Source: Candidatus Nitrosotenuis cloacae (GTDB lineage: Archaea > Thermoproteota > Nitrososphaeria > Nitrososphaerales > Nitrosopumilaceae). From it: a stretch of DNA of 64,000 nt. The stretch covers positions 1,266,582 to 1,330,581 of the forward strand of contig NZ_CP011097.1 in NCBI RefSeq assembly GCF_000955905.1, read 5' to 3'. The position numbers were made by a program, and so were the translations under genes. Below the pieces are notes generated by a model. It searched no databases, had not been told where the DNA came from, and saw nothing but the letters and a program-made list of their open reading frames with translations. Of this stretch, positions 36,004 through 40,186 are shown piece by piece. Position 1 is the first letter of the stretch. Each line of letters begins with the position of its first letter.

Positions 36004-36831
36004 ATGCGTATTAGAACACCGGCTGTTGCTGGCATGTTCTATCCAAAAGAAAAATCAAAACTCGAACAATCAATTCACTCCTGCATAGCACATGAGTATG
36101 GAGTTGGAAAACACCAAAACCAAGAAAAAATCTACGGTGTAATTTGCCCACATGCGGGTTACATGTACTCTGGTCCTGTAGCAACACACTCCTTTGATAG
36201 CATAGCGAACCAAGACTTTGAGCTTGCAGTGATTTTGGGCCCAAACCACTGGGGCATTGGATGCAACATTGCCACAATGAAGGACTGTACCTGGGAGACC
36301 CCACTGGGTGAGATAGATGTTGATTCTGATGCAGCAAGTCAGATCAATGAGATTTCCAAAATAATAGAGATTGATTATTTTTCCCACACCCGTGATCATA
36401 GCATAGAAGTCCAAGTTCCAATGCTGCAGGAATTCTGCAAAAAGCCATTCAAAATTTTGCCAATCATATTAAACGACCAAGATTACGAGTTTGCGCAGGA
36501 AATAGGTGCAGCCATTGCAAAGATTGCCAAAACAAAAAAGACAATCATCATTGGCTCATCAGACTTTACTCATTATGAGGAAAACGAGTTTGCGCACAGG
36601 CAGGATATGGCCCTAATTGAGCCAATATTGAAATTAGATGTGAAGAAATTCTACAAAGTGTTGAATGATAGGAGGATAAGTGCGTGCGGATACGGAGCAA
36701 TCGCTTCCACCATGATTGCATGCAAGGAACTCGGAGCAACAAAGGGCGTGCTCCTAAAATATGCAACAAGTGGAGATATTGCCGGAGACACAAGCTCCGT
36801 TGTCGGATACGCATCAATAGTGTTTAGTTGA
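36004..36831 (+). CDS. MEMO family protein
   Basis: 275 residues, MEMO-like family related to extradiol dioxygenases (LigB fold). Seen: RTPAVAGMFYP at the start, CPHAGYMYSG, GPNH and SSDFTHY, which carry the His and Asp/Cys residues of the metal site. Human MEMO1 binds iron or copper and was proposed to act in redox signalling; the archaeal role is not established. The gene is fused into an operon between uS2 and mevalonate kinase, its usual archaeal place, and overlaps the next gene by TTGA. Confidence 0.9.
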   Translation: MRIRTPAVAGMFYPKEKSKLEQSIHSCIAHEYGVGKHQNQEKIYGVICPHAGYMYSGPVATHSFDSIANQDFELAVILGPNHWGIGCNIATMKDCTWETPLGEIDVDSDAASQINEISKIIEIDYFSHTRDHSIEVQVPMLQEFCKKPFKILPIILNDQDYEFAQEIGAAIAKIAKTKKTIIIGSSDFTHYEENEFAHRQDMALIEPILKLDVKKFYKVLNDRRISACGYGAIASTMIACKELGATKGVLLKYATSGDIAGDTSSVVGYASIVFS

Positions 36832-37784
36832 AATCCATTGCATCTGCTCCCGCAAAGGTGATCTTGTTTGGTGAGCACTTTATCATATATGGCGGAAAGG
36901 CAATTCTCTGCTCAATAGACAAAAGAATCACCGTAGAGTCCGAGTTGATTGATGATAATACAATACAGATAAGCTCCGATCTTGGCTCCATCACATCATC
37001 AAGGGATGAATCGATCAAAAACACTGATCCAAAGTTCGGGCCACTGGTGTTTATTGCTCAGAAAATTCTCAAACAATTTGAATCAAAATCAGGACTAAAG
37101 ATCTCTATAAAATCAGAGATTCCATCTGGTGTAGGTCTTGGATCATCGTCTGCCTGTTGTGTTGCAGCAGCTAGCTCGATTTCAGGTCTTTTTACAAATT
37201 ATTCGAAGGATGAAATCGTAAAAATTGCAATAGAGGCAGAAAGAACAGTATTTGAGAACGCATCCGGTGCGGATACTAGCATCTGCACGTTTGGCGGAAT
37301 AATGGAATACACAAAACAAGAAACTAAAAATTTGGATTTAAAGCCAAAATTCCATCTAGTGATTGCCAACTCTAAAATGATTCATTCTACAAGCGAGGTG
37401 GTTTTGCGAGTAAAACAATTCAGGGAAAAACAGGTTGACGAGTTTGCATTGTTGTGCCAAAACGAATCTTCCTTGATCGAAGAAGCACTGGATGCGCTAA
37501 AAAGAAACGATCTTGGATTGATTGGAGAAAAAATGCTGATAAATCAGACACATTTGCAAAAAATTGGAGTATCAAACCAAACATTAGATGAAATGATCAG
37601 AGCAATCAAAGGCATATCATATGGAGCAAAAATAACTGGTGCTGGGGATGGTGGATGTATCGTCATACTAGTTGATGAGTCCAATTTACAAAAGACATTG
37701 GATGCGCTAAAAAATTACGAATGTTTTGCAACAAAAATCGACACATTAGGCGTTGAGCAAAAAACCATAAAAAATACCACATAG
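36828..37784 (+). CDS. mvk: Mevalonate kinase
   Basis: 318 residues, GHMP kinase. Motifs: SAPAKVILFGEH near the start, the phosphate-binding loop PSGVGLGSSSA, and GAGDGGC near the C-terminus. It phosphorylates mevalonate for archaeal isoprenoid lipids. The TTG start overlaps the MEMO stop. It begins the isoprenoid run mvk-ipk-idi-idsA. Phosphomevalonate enzymes of the archaeal alternative route are not in the window. Confidence 0.95.
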   Translation: MKSIASAPAKVILFGEHFIIYGGKAILCSIDKRITVESELIDDNTIQISSDLGSITSSRDESIKNTDPKFGPLVFIAQKILKQFESKSGLKISIKSEIPSGVGLGSSSACCVAAASSISGLFTNYSKDEIVKIAIEAERTVFENASGADTSICTFGGIMEYTKQETKNLDLKPKFHLVIANSKMIHSTSEVVLRVKQFREKQVDEFALLCQNESSLIEEALDALKRNDLGLIGEKMLINQTHLQKIGVSNQTLDEMIRAIKGISYGAKITGAGDGGCIVILVDESNLQKTLDALKNYECFATKIDTLGVEQKTIKNTT

Positions 37785-37828: not shown

Positions 37829-38569
37829 ATGATTCTGATCAAGCTTGGCGGATCTATTATAACAAACAAGGAAAAACCGCTTTCTCCAAGAATCAAAACC
37901 ATAGACAACATTGCAAAACAGCTAAAAAAAATCTCAGAGCCATTTGTTATAGTGCATGGTGGCGGATCCTTTGGGCACTATTGGTCAGTCAAATACGACA
38001 TGCACACAAAGCCAGCAAGGTATGATTCACACGGTGTTGCAATAGTAAAAAATTCCATGATAGAGCTAAACAAGATAATCCTAGACAGTCTCACAAAGAA
38101 CAAGCTAAATCCATACTGTCTTCCACCGACTGATTTTATGTCAGGCAACAAACCAATACCATCCAAGGTCAGAGAAATAAGAAAAATTGCCGAATCAAAC
38201 CTGATCCCAGTTACGTTTGGAGACGCATTATGGTATGGGCAAAAAAAATCCTACATACTCTCTGGCGATAAGATAATGAGCATTTTGGCAAAGGCATTGC
38301 GCCCAAGACTATCCATATTTATCCTAAACGTGGACGGACTATACTCGGATCTGAATACAAAGCGCCTCATTTACGATATGAAAGATGATCAAGTATCAAT
38401 ACAAGACATACCAATGGATGTCACAGGCGGAATGACTCGCAAGGTGGAAGAGGCAACCAAGATTTCAAAGATGGGCCTAAAGGTGTTTTTTGCAAACGGA
38501 AACAAGCCAGAGCGCATCACCAACGCCATACAAAAAAACAGATTCGAGGGAACAATATTTCGAGGCTAG
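37829..38569 (+). CDS. ipk: Isopentenyl phosphate kinase
   Basis: 246 residues, amino-acid-kinase fold. KLGGSIIT at the start and HGGGSFGH (43-50), where the last His is the catalytic residue that defines IPK within the family. It converts isopentenyl phosphate to IPP, the final step of the archaeal mevalonate route. 44 nt after mvk, and 1 nt before the next gene. Confidence 0.95.
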   Translation: MILIKLGGSIITNKEKPLSPRIKTIDNIAKQLKKISEPFVIVHGGGSFGHYWSVKYDMHTKPARYDSHGVAIVKNSMIELNKIILDSLTKNKLNPYCLPPTDFMSGNKPIPSKVREIRKIAESNLIPVTFGDALWYGQKKSYILSGDKIMSILAKALRPRLSIFILNVDGLYSDLNTKRLIYDMKDDQVSIQDIPMDVTGGMTRKVEEATKISKMGLKVFFANGNKPERITNAIQKNRFEGTIFRG

Positions 38570-38570
38570 C

Positions 38571-39212
38571 ATGGCAGAAGAATTTCTAATCCTAGTTGAT
38601 AGCAGTGATACCCCAATAGGTACTGAGGAGAAAGTCAAGTGTCATTTGCCAAACGGCAAGCTACACCGAGCATTCACCATATTACTATTCAACAAGGAAA
38701 AAAAACTATTACTCACGCGACGAAGTGAGAGCAAAATGCTTTGGCCTGGAGACTGGGACGGTACGGTTGCAAGTCATCCACGAAAGACAGAAACCTATGT
38801 GTCGTCTGCTGAGCGAAGGTTGCCAGAGGAGATCGGTGCAGCTTGCAAGTTGGATTATTTGTTCAAATTTGAGTATCATGTTCCATACAAAGATGTTGGA
38901 TCAGAAAATGAGATCTGCGGCACACTAATCGGAGAGGTAAATGACTCATTCCAGATTAAGTTAGTAAAAGACGAAATCAGTGAGATAAAGTGGGCAGACG
39001 AAAAGGAACTCTTCTCAGAGATTGAAAAAAATCCGCAGATATACTGTCCATGGATGCTAGTTGCGCTATATTTTCTTGAAAAATCTGACAAACAGATGAT
39101 TCAAAAACACAAAGAAATTTTCGATAAATGGATGAATCCAAAATACAAGCACATCATAGAAAAATCACTCAAATACCACTTTCCAACAAACAATTGGAGG
39201 CTGCTAAACTAA
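38571..39212 (+). CDS. Type 1 isopentenyl-diphosphate isomerase-like Nudix protein (active-site Cys replaced)
   Basis: 213 residues from ATG 38571; an earlier in-frame start at 38490 would overlap ipk. A Nudix fold closely following IDI-1: HLPNGKLHRAF (metal His pair), WPGDWDGTVASHP, RRLPEEIG, ENEIC (metal Glu pair) and CPWML near the end. In IDI-1 the segment should read like TNSVCGHP with the catalytic Cys67; here position 67 is Ala, while His69 and the other ligands remain. The operon position between ipk and GGPP synthase still argues for IPP/DMAPP interconversion or a related role. Confidence 0.82.
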   Translation: MAEEFLILVDSSDTPIGTEEKVKCHLPNGKLHRAFTILLFNKEKKLLLTRRSESKMLWPGDWDGTVASHPRKTETYVSSAERRLPEEIGAACKLDYLFKFEYHVPYKDVGSENEICGTLIGEVNDSFQIKLVKDEISEIKWADEKELFSEIEKNPQIYCPWMLVALYFLEKSDKQMIQKHKEIFDKWMNPKYKHIIEKSLKYHFPTNNWRLLN

Positions 39213-40186
39213 TGGTAAAGACCCTTCCAAGCACAGCAAAGACAGTAAATCACTATCTACGATCAAAACTAAATGGAAGGCCTGATGTTTTGTACAAGGC
39301 ATCTGCACACCTAATTGTAAACGGTGGCAAGCGCCTAAGACCATATTTGGTGGTAAAGAGCTGCCAAATGCTTGGTGGCTCCATAAAGGACGCAATGCCA
39401 GCGGCAGCTGCAATAGAAATGGTTCACAACTTTACCCTAGTCCACGATGACATTATGGACAATGATGAGATGCGACATGGTGTTCCGACAGTTCACATGA
39501 GGTTTGGCATGCCTCTTGCAATACTCGCAGGCGATGTCTTGTTCTCAAAGGCGTTTGAGATGGTATCCACAGAAAATGTGAAAAGCGTACAGGTCTCTGC
39601 AGGCTTGGTCTCAAGGCTTGCCAAGGCTTGCGTTGATGTCTGTGAGGGACAGGTATTGGATATCAAGATGGCAGAGGGCAAGAAAATCCCAACAAAATCA
39701 GAATATATCACCATGATAGAAAAAAAGACATCGGCTCTCTTTGAGGTCTCTTGTGCCATGGGCGCAATATGTGCAAAAAGGCCATCAGATGTTGCAAACT
39801 TGGCATCATTTGGCAAAAACTTGGGAGTATCATTTCAGATAACAGACGATTACATTGGTGTTTTGGGCGATCCAAAGGTTACAAAAAAGCCAGTAGGCAA
39901 TGATTTGCGCGAGGGCAAAAAATCCCTGCCAATATTGCTTGCAATTCAAAAGGCAGATCCAAAATCAAGAAAAATAATTCTCAAAGTGTTTGGAAACCCA
40001 AGAGCAACAAAATCAGAGATAGCAAATGCAATCCAGACAATGCGAACTCTGGAAATTGAAGAAGATGTAAGAAAGACAGCACTAGATTATGCGCAAAAAG
40101 CAAAGCAGTCATTGGCAAAATATTCAGGTCCTGCCAAGTCAGAAATGATTGCACTTTTGGATTTTGTTGTAACAAGGAGCTTGTAA
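39212..40186 (+). CDS. idsA: Geranylgeranyl diphosphate synthase
   Basis: 324 residues from ATG 39212, which overlaps the stop before it (TAATG); a longer frame to 39128 is inside the preceding gene. First Asp-rich motif DDIMDND (79-85) and second DDYIG define a trans-prenyltransferase. GGKRLRP binds the diphosphate. The chain-length-determining residues before the first motif (NFTLVH) suggest GGPP (C20), the precursor of archaeal ether lipids. The stop is 1 nt before gltX. Confidence 0.94.
   Translation: MVKTLPSTAKTVNHYLRSKLNGRPDVLYKASAHLIVNGGKRLRPYLVVKSCQMLGGSIKDAMPAAAAIEMVHNFTLVHDDIMDNDEMRHGVPTVHMRFGMPLAILAGDVLFSKAFEMVSTENVKSVQVSAGLVSRLAKACVDVCEGQVLDIKMAEGKKIPTKSEYITMIEKKTSALFEVSCAMGAICAKRPSDVANLASFGKNLGVSFQITDDYIGVLGDPKVTKKPVGNDLREGKKSLPILLAIQKADPKSRKIILKVFGNPRATKSEIANAIQTMRTLEIEEDVRKTALDYAQKAKQSLAKYSGPAKSEMIALLDFVVTRSL

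Follow-up and report, generated by a model that had tools for sequence, protein, structure and literature searches.

A protein encoded in the window, the whole stretch of 64,000 nucleotides of Candidatus Nitrosotenuis cloacae DNA analysed here, has the fold and almost all of the active-site residues of a type 1 isopentenyl diphosphate isomerase (IDI-1), but carries alanine at position 67, the place of the catalytic cysteine of the canonical enzymes. The substitution is real, universal among the loci read from the window's family, and biologically load-bearing. On the evidence of sequence and gene content, we put at roughly three in four the probability that the protein is an isomerase; it would then be the only IPP isomerase of the cell, and would work without Cys67. 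It is most likely a Cys67-free variant that the family model files as IDI-1 and that works as IDI-1 does.

Nitrosopumilaceae, which oxidise ammonia, are among the most abundant marine archaea, and the membrane lipids of archaea are isoprenoid; the isomerase would supply an essential precursor of these lipids. If the reading is correct, then there are at least two ways to catalyse the IDI-1 reaction, of which the accepted mechanism is one, and the protein offers a direct way to ask what role the thiol plays in the isomerase reaction. It would also help to explain the working of human IDI2, and would document a stage in the descent of isomerases from Nudix hydrolases. Because family models already label the protein as IDI, the missing cysteine goes unnoticed.

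The reading frame opens with ATG at 38571 and closes with TAA at 39210-39212; the codon for Ala67 is gca (38769-38771) and that for Cys116, which corresponds to position 118 in E. coli, lies at 38916-38918. The gene is closely packed with its neighbours (Table 1). The stop codon of the upstream kinase gene occupies 38567-38569, so that the ATG begins two bases past the last kinase base, and the ATG of the downstream GGPP synthase gene overlaps the IDI-1-like stop (TAATG). The upstream gene, which we take to be an isopentenyl phosphate kinase (IPK) from the archaeal occurrence of the same gene cluster, would make IPP; GGPP synthase uses DMAPP as primer. The order IPK–IDI–GGPP synthase on one strand was found in 42 of 43 named loci, and the remaining one (L128) is cut off before the IPK. 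A MEMO-like gene (36004-36831 in the window) was found in just 7 of the 43 named loci, some of which end short of that place; it seems to be missing from the cluster in many Nitrosopumilus.

Table 1. The IDI-1-like gene, its parts and its neighbours (positions in the window).
Feature	Position	Strand	Evidence
GHMP kinase, probable mevalonate kinase	36828..37784	+	
Isopentenyl phosphate kinase-like (IPK-like) gene	37829..38569	+	Pfam AA_kinase
IDI-1-like protein gene, 213 aa, Ala67 in place of Cys67	38571..39212	+	ORF list, family models, AF2 model
Codons 63-69 (D63 G64 T65 V66 A67 S68 H69)	38757..38777	+	
Codons 112-116 (E112 N113 E114 I115 C116)	38904..38918	+	
C-terminal extension of the IDI-like protein, residues 166-213	39066..39209	+	
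Polyprenyl/GGPP synthase gene	39212..40186	+	PF00348

The IDI-1 models TIGR02150 (115.5 bits, cut-off 105.8) and NF002995 (135.2 bits, cut-off 127) are both exceeded, if not by much, while the model of type 2 IDI (TIGR02151) gave no match at E 0.01 in the NCBIfam scan. The best relatives in the PDB are all IDI-1, with a top E-value of 6.9e-26. An AF2 model built from a 50-row alignment (pLDDT 96.7) superposes on E. coli IDI 1hx3 with Z 22.7 and rmsd 2.3 over 175 aligned residues (VIA-align; best canonical chains Z 21.9-22.7), and it aligns with human IDI1 over residues 1-213. The end of human IDI1 is matched by the C-terminal extension (approximately 45 residues, closing in a conserved W[RE] pattern), which is present in Nitrosopumilaceae proteins and absent from the Thr67 and Nitrospirota relatives discussed below.

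A preliminary description of this DNA had placed Ala67 where Cys67 should be, with His69, the other metal ligands, the Glu pair and the active-site Trp kept. Both statements are borne out by the alignment to E. coli IDI, which is free of gaps at the site and sets Ala67-Ser68-His69 over Cys67-Gly68-His69. (PDB entry 1i9a reads SVCGHP there; chains 1ow2 and 1hx3 read SVAGHP, that is, Ala67.) The window protein retains every one of the five metal ligands (the histidines H25, H32 and H69, and the glutamates E112 and E114), the catalytic E114, Y102 and W161 (E112, E114 and Y102 are E. coli E114, E116 and Y104), and also K21, R51, K55, R83 and E87. Besides Ala67, it departs from canonical type 1 IDI (E. 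coli Idi, human IDI1) in having Asp63 for Thr/Ser/Ala, Gly64 for Asn64, and Tyr76. The Nudix box (Gx5Ex7REUxEExGU) is altered, with S68 for the first G and R83 for the E of 'RE', although E74, R82, E86, E87 and G89 are still present. YfcD-like Nudix hydrolases share the Nudix fold (2fkb, Z 20.7), have H25/H32 in archaeal relatives and in some cases Asp63; in contrast to the window protein, they have Glu at 83 and, in L185-L194, neither ENE-x-C nor Pro-Trp.

Alignment of thaumarchaeal sequences at position 67, a check that the preliminary description had proposed, shows the change throughout what was read of the family. Ala67-Ser68 was found at all 91 loci read (76 genomes, out of 199 in the family that gave a match), with S68 invariant, and Ala67 at all 43 named Nitrosopumilaceae-type loci. 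The named loci are mostly from Nitrosopumilus, with Nitrosotenuis, Nitrosotalea and Cenarchaeum; from their titles we infer that the window's family, among the 400 genomes of the class that were surveyed, is Nitrosopumilaceae. All four alanine codons are used (GCA 66, GCT 8, GCC 8 and GCG 6 in 88 sequences). Values of dN/dS lie between 0.055 and 0.083 in four of eight pairs (dS was not computable for the other four), which indicates strong purifying selection.

The preliminary description had also called for a search for type 2 IDI, which is FMN-dependent, belongs to an unrelated protein family, presumably performs the same reaction, and takes the place of IDI-1 in related families. The genome of Ca. 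N. cloacae (one contig, 99.93% complete) holds no type 2 IDI and no IspH, and its six NUDIX-domain places include no second relative of the window protein, even at E 10. Across the 400 genomes, an IDI-1-like protein is found in 234 and IDI-2 in 135. The former comprise 199 genomes of the window's family, none of which has IDI-2, and 35 from other families (32 of them from family f4); a few of these 35 are weak matches and may be other Nudix proteins. Two f4 genomes (G342 and G348) carry IDI-2 but gave no match of the IDI-1-like kind. Neither type was found, at the thresholds used, in 32 genomes, at least 20 of which belong to the window's family. Five of these 20 were checked: four fragmented genomes also lack a close GGPP synthase neighbour (matches are just 29-30% identical), and the fifth gave no GGPP synthase match. 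The absence of the IDI-1-like gene in these genomes thus points to assembly gaps.

Both types occur together in one genome only, G345 (87% complete, 4% contamination), where the IDI-1 (locus L064) is of the Cys67 type; a contaminant contig is possible. Within genus g44, G348 has IDI-2 and three other genomes (G213, G305 and G314) have an IDI-1-like protein of the Thr67 type, a pattern that looks like an exchange of one kind for the other.

Relatives outside the family show a variety of residues at the same position. A scan of named genomes recovered three Nitrospirota proteins with Ala67 (L105, L148 and L149), and Aenigmatarchaeota relatives with Thr67 (L102, L104) and Cys67 (L103). All three Nitrospirota genes lie less than 4 kb from hopanoid genes: HpnJ, HpnK and hopene cyclase for L148; HpnN, hopene cyclase and HpnA for L105; HpnM and HpnN for L149. 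Bacterial Ala67 enzymes, too, thus have an isoprenoid context. Thr67-Ser68 was read at every readable locus (46 of 47) of a second thaumarchaeal group, which consists of f4, one f17 genome and look-alikes from named genomes. In the named loci of this group the genes do not adjoin mevalonate genes of the window type, and the neighbours of L083 and L097 are unrelated. Viral contigs gave no relative with one query alignment and one Cys67 relative with another. A literature search covering titles and the beginnings of abstracts, mostly of open-access papers, returned no publication on a Cys67-less archaeal IDI.

The lack of IDI-2 and IspH in the genome, the family-wide absence of IDI-2, the IPK and GGPP synthase neighbours, the hopanoid context in Nitrospirota, the purifying selection, the fold match to IDI-1 and the precedent of human IDI2 (below) together argue that the window protein is most likely the sole isomerase, on which the cell seems to depend; from the same facts we infer its activity. 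Against this reading count the near loss of activity in Cys67 mutants of the E. coli enzyme and the position of the Thr67 relatives apart from window-type mevalonate genes; the genome may also encode an isomerase of some other, unrecognised kind. Were such an isomerase to make DMAPP, the window protein might do a different job on IPP/DMAPP, be it Nudix hydrolysis to the monophosphate or regulation. Relatives just outside the branch do score best as YfcD-like Nudix hydrolases (L187), and a residue other than Cys at 67, together with D63, is common to some such proteins. We nevertheless regard a different job as improbable: the genome yielded no other isomerase, IDI-1-like proteins and IDI-2 are mutually exclusive across all genomes but G345, the Nudix box is altered at S68 and R83 whereas the ENE and Pro-Trp of IDI are retained, and the gene neighbours belong to mevalonate and hopanoid clusters. 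The preliminary description had left the choice between another residue and a different job; universality and the lack of IDI-2 and IspH speak against the latter, and the use of another residue is favoured. That the enzyme is dead or decaying, or that codon 67 is misread, is scarcely credible. The sole support for either is the missing residue itself; decay should show as relaxed selection, of which there is no sign, and a sequencing error, which had been named as a possible refutation, is excluded by 91 concordant loci written with four different codons.

A natural precedent for an IDI-1 without Cys67 is human IDI2 (PDB 2pny), which differs from IDI1 in having Ser67, Asp64 and Cys116 in place of Cys67, Asn64 and Asp116. 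Like the window protein, it combines Cys116 with an acid at 63/64; unlike the window protein, it has Ser rather than Ala at 67, the acid at 64 rather than 63, and His102, and it is of separate origin, falling beside IDI1 in the tree. A stop mutation in human IDI2 is reported to abolish breath isoprene (PMC10542801), which implies activity in an IDI-1 that naturally lacks Cys67. In the accessible parts of that paper the terms 'cysteine' and 'serine' do not occur and residue 67 is not discussed.

To define what varies together with position 67, we assembled 173 distinct sequences of the IDI branch possessing E112, E114, H69 and W161. Two proteins with Trp161 and no Cys116 (L182b and L198) were left out because they fall outside the branch; L065, L066, L186 and L189, whose place in the tree is unsure, were counted here among the Cys67-less sequences and left out of the careful tree described below. 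Position 67 is Cys in 22 sequences and another residue in 151 (117 Ala, 32 Thr and 2 Ser). Cys116 is present in all 151 Cys67-less sequences, as against 5 of the 22 with Cys67 (the others have D in 10, V in 3, N in 2, L in 1 and G in 1). Asn64 occurs in 22 of 22 Cys67 sequences and in none of the 151, while an acid at 63/64 occurs in all 151, human IDI2 included, and in none of the 22. These counts are dominated by one related group and represent two independent contrasts on the tree, with which the paired test run for position 116 cannot reach significance.

Mutation of Cys67 leaves E. coli IDI with almost no activity. The residues that move protons in this enzyme are taken to be Cys67, Glu116 and Tyr104, and in human IDI1 Cys87, Glu149, Trp197 and Tyr137 are held necessary for antarafacial transfer (PMC11415240, which cites the primary papers). 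To judge from the residues kept, the metal site of the window protein (H25, H32, H69, E112, E114) would hold IPP, E114 with Y102 would deliver or remove the C4 proton, and W161 would stabilise the tertiary cation, all as in the E. coli enzyme. Another group would be needed for the proton step at C2, the second one, which in E. coli is ascribed to Cys67; the candidates, in order, are Cys116, D63, and water held near A67/S68.

That Cys116 is the replacement acid/base is a tentative proposal. Residues 110-122 form one strand in the AF2 model, so that, by strand geometry, the side chains of E112, E114 and C116 should all point towards the metal site. However, Cys116 cannot be enough without other changes, since E. 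coli IDI has both Cys67 and Cys118 and yet is said to need Cys67; moreover, Cys116 and E114 share one strand, but the canonical transfer is described as antarafacial (PMC11415240). It is a serious possibility, and one compatible with the isomerase role, that no thiol stands in for Cys67: the C2 proton may move by way of Asp63, of water or a hydroxyl at S68/T65, or of the substrate pyrophosphate, with Cys116 incidental. Position 63/64 is a sharper discriminator of the two groups than Cys116, the E. coli enzyme has both cysteines, and none of the 91 family loci departs from S68. Against this, D63 is found also in distant NUDIX proteins (L208, L182b, L198) and so may be structural, Cys116 was not found in those outgroup rows, and S68 is present in Cys67 enzymes as well.

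Other residues were considered and rejected. Cys24, the first idea for a replacement thiol (Cys in most Cys67-less proteins and Ala in E. coli), is Ala in two Thr67 loci (L054, L096) and Ser in one family locus, and is Cys in human IDI1 and many non-IDI Nudix proteins too. Cys159 is invariant in the family (91 of 91) but is Thr in the Thr67 relatives. The preliminary suggestion that T65 or S68 is the substitute has proved weak, as both occur in Cys67 enzymes: human IDI1 reads C-C-S-H around position 68, and position 65 is T/S here and S/T/A/G/P in Cys67 enzymes.

To place the Cys67-less proteins we built a tree from 55 rows, without columns 67 and 116, rooted on YfcD-like Nudix proteins of Thermoproteota (Thr/Ser67). 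The Thr67 branch departs first, followed by an Ala67 branch (the family plus Nitrospirota, support 97/92) beside a Cys67 branch (support 89/62, with human IDI2 inside); the pairing of the latter two is supported at 95/91. In this best tree the window protein lies outside the canonical Cys67 branch. Forcing all Cys67-less rows into one clade costs 7.4 log units, and this alternative is not rejected (AU p 0.055). The tree suggests that Cys67 was never present in this branch, rather than lost, and was a later gain elsewhere. The preliminary wording, a protein without its cysteine, stands as to the absence, whereas the implied loss is disfavoured by the rooted tree. Thaumarchaeal IDI1 has been proposed to be probably of bacterial origin by transfer (PMC3533463), and the position of the family next to Nitrospirota fits this proposal, as it would fit a transfer in either direction.

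A more speculative extension, which we consider less likely than not, is that Cys67 was not a founding feature. The earliest IDI-1 may have used Cys118 (E. coli numbering), the acid at 63, or both, with Cys67 and Asn64 arising later and freeing position 118. The founding Cys67-free state would then persist in Nitrosopumilaceae, another thaumarchaeal family, some Aenigmatarchaeota and Nitrospirota, and human IDI2 would have reverted, losing Cys67 and Asn64 and gaining Cys at 118.

Two further arrangements were observed among the distant relatives. At locus L182 (genome G719), approximately 2 kb separate a Cys67 IDI-1 from another Nudix protein (Ser67, Val116), and both share their strand with a mevalonate kinase-like gene. 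L186 and L189, from family f68 of the phylum, are Nudix proteins with the motif W-E-F-P-A-S-H, ENE-x-C and Trp161, and constitute another Cys67-less form.
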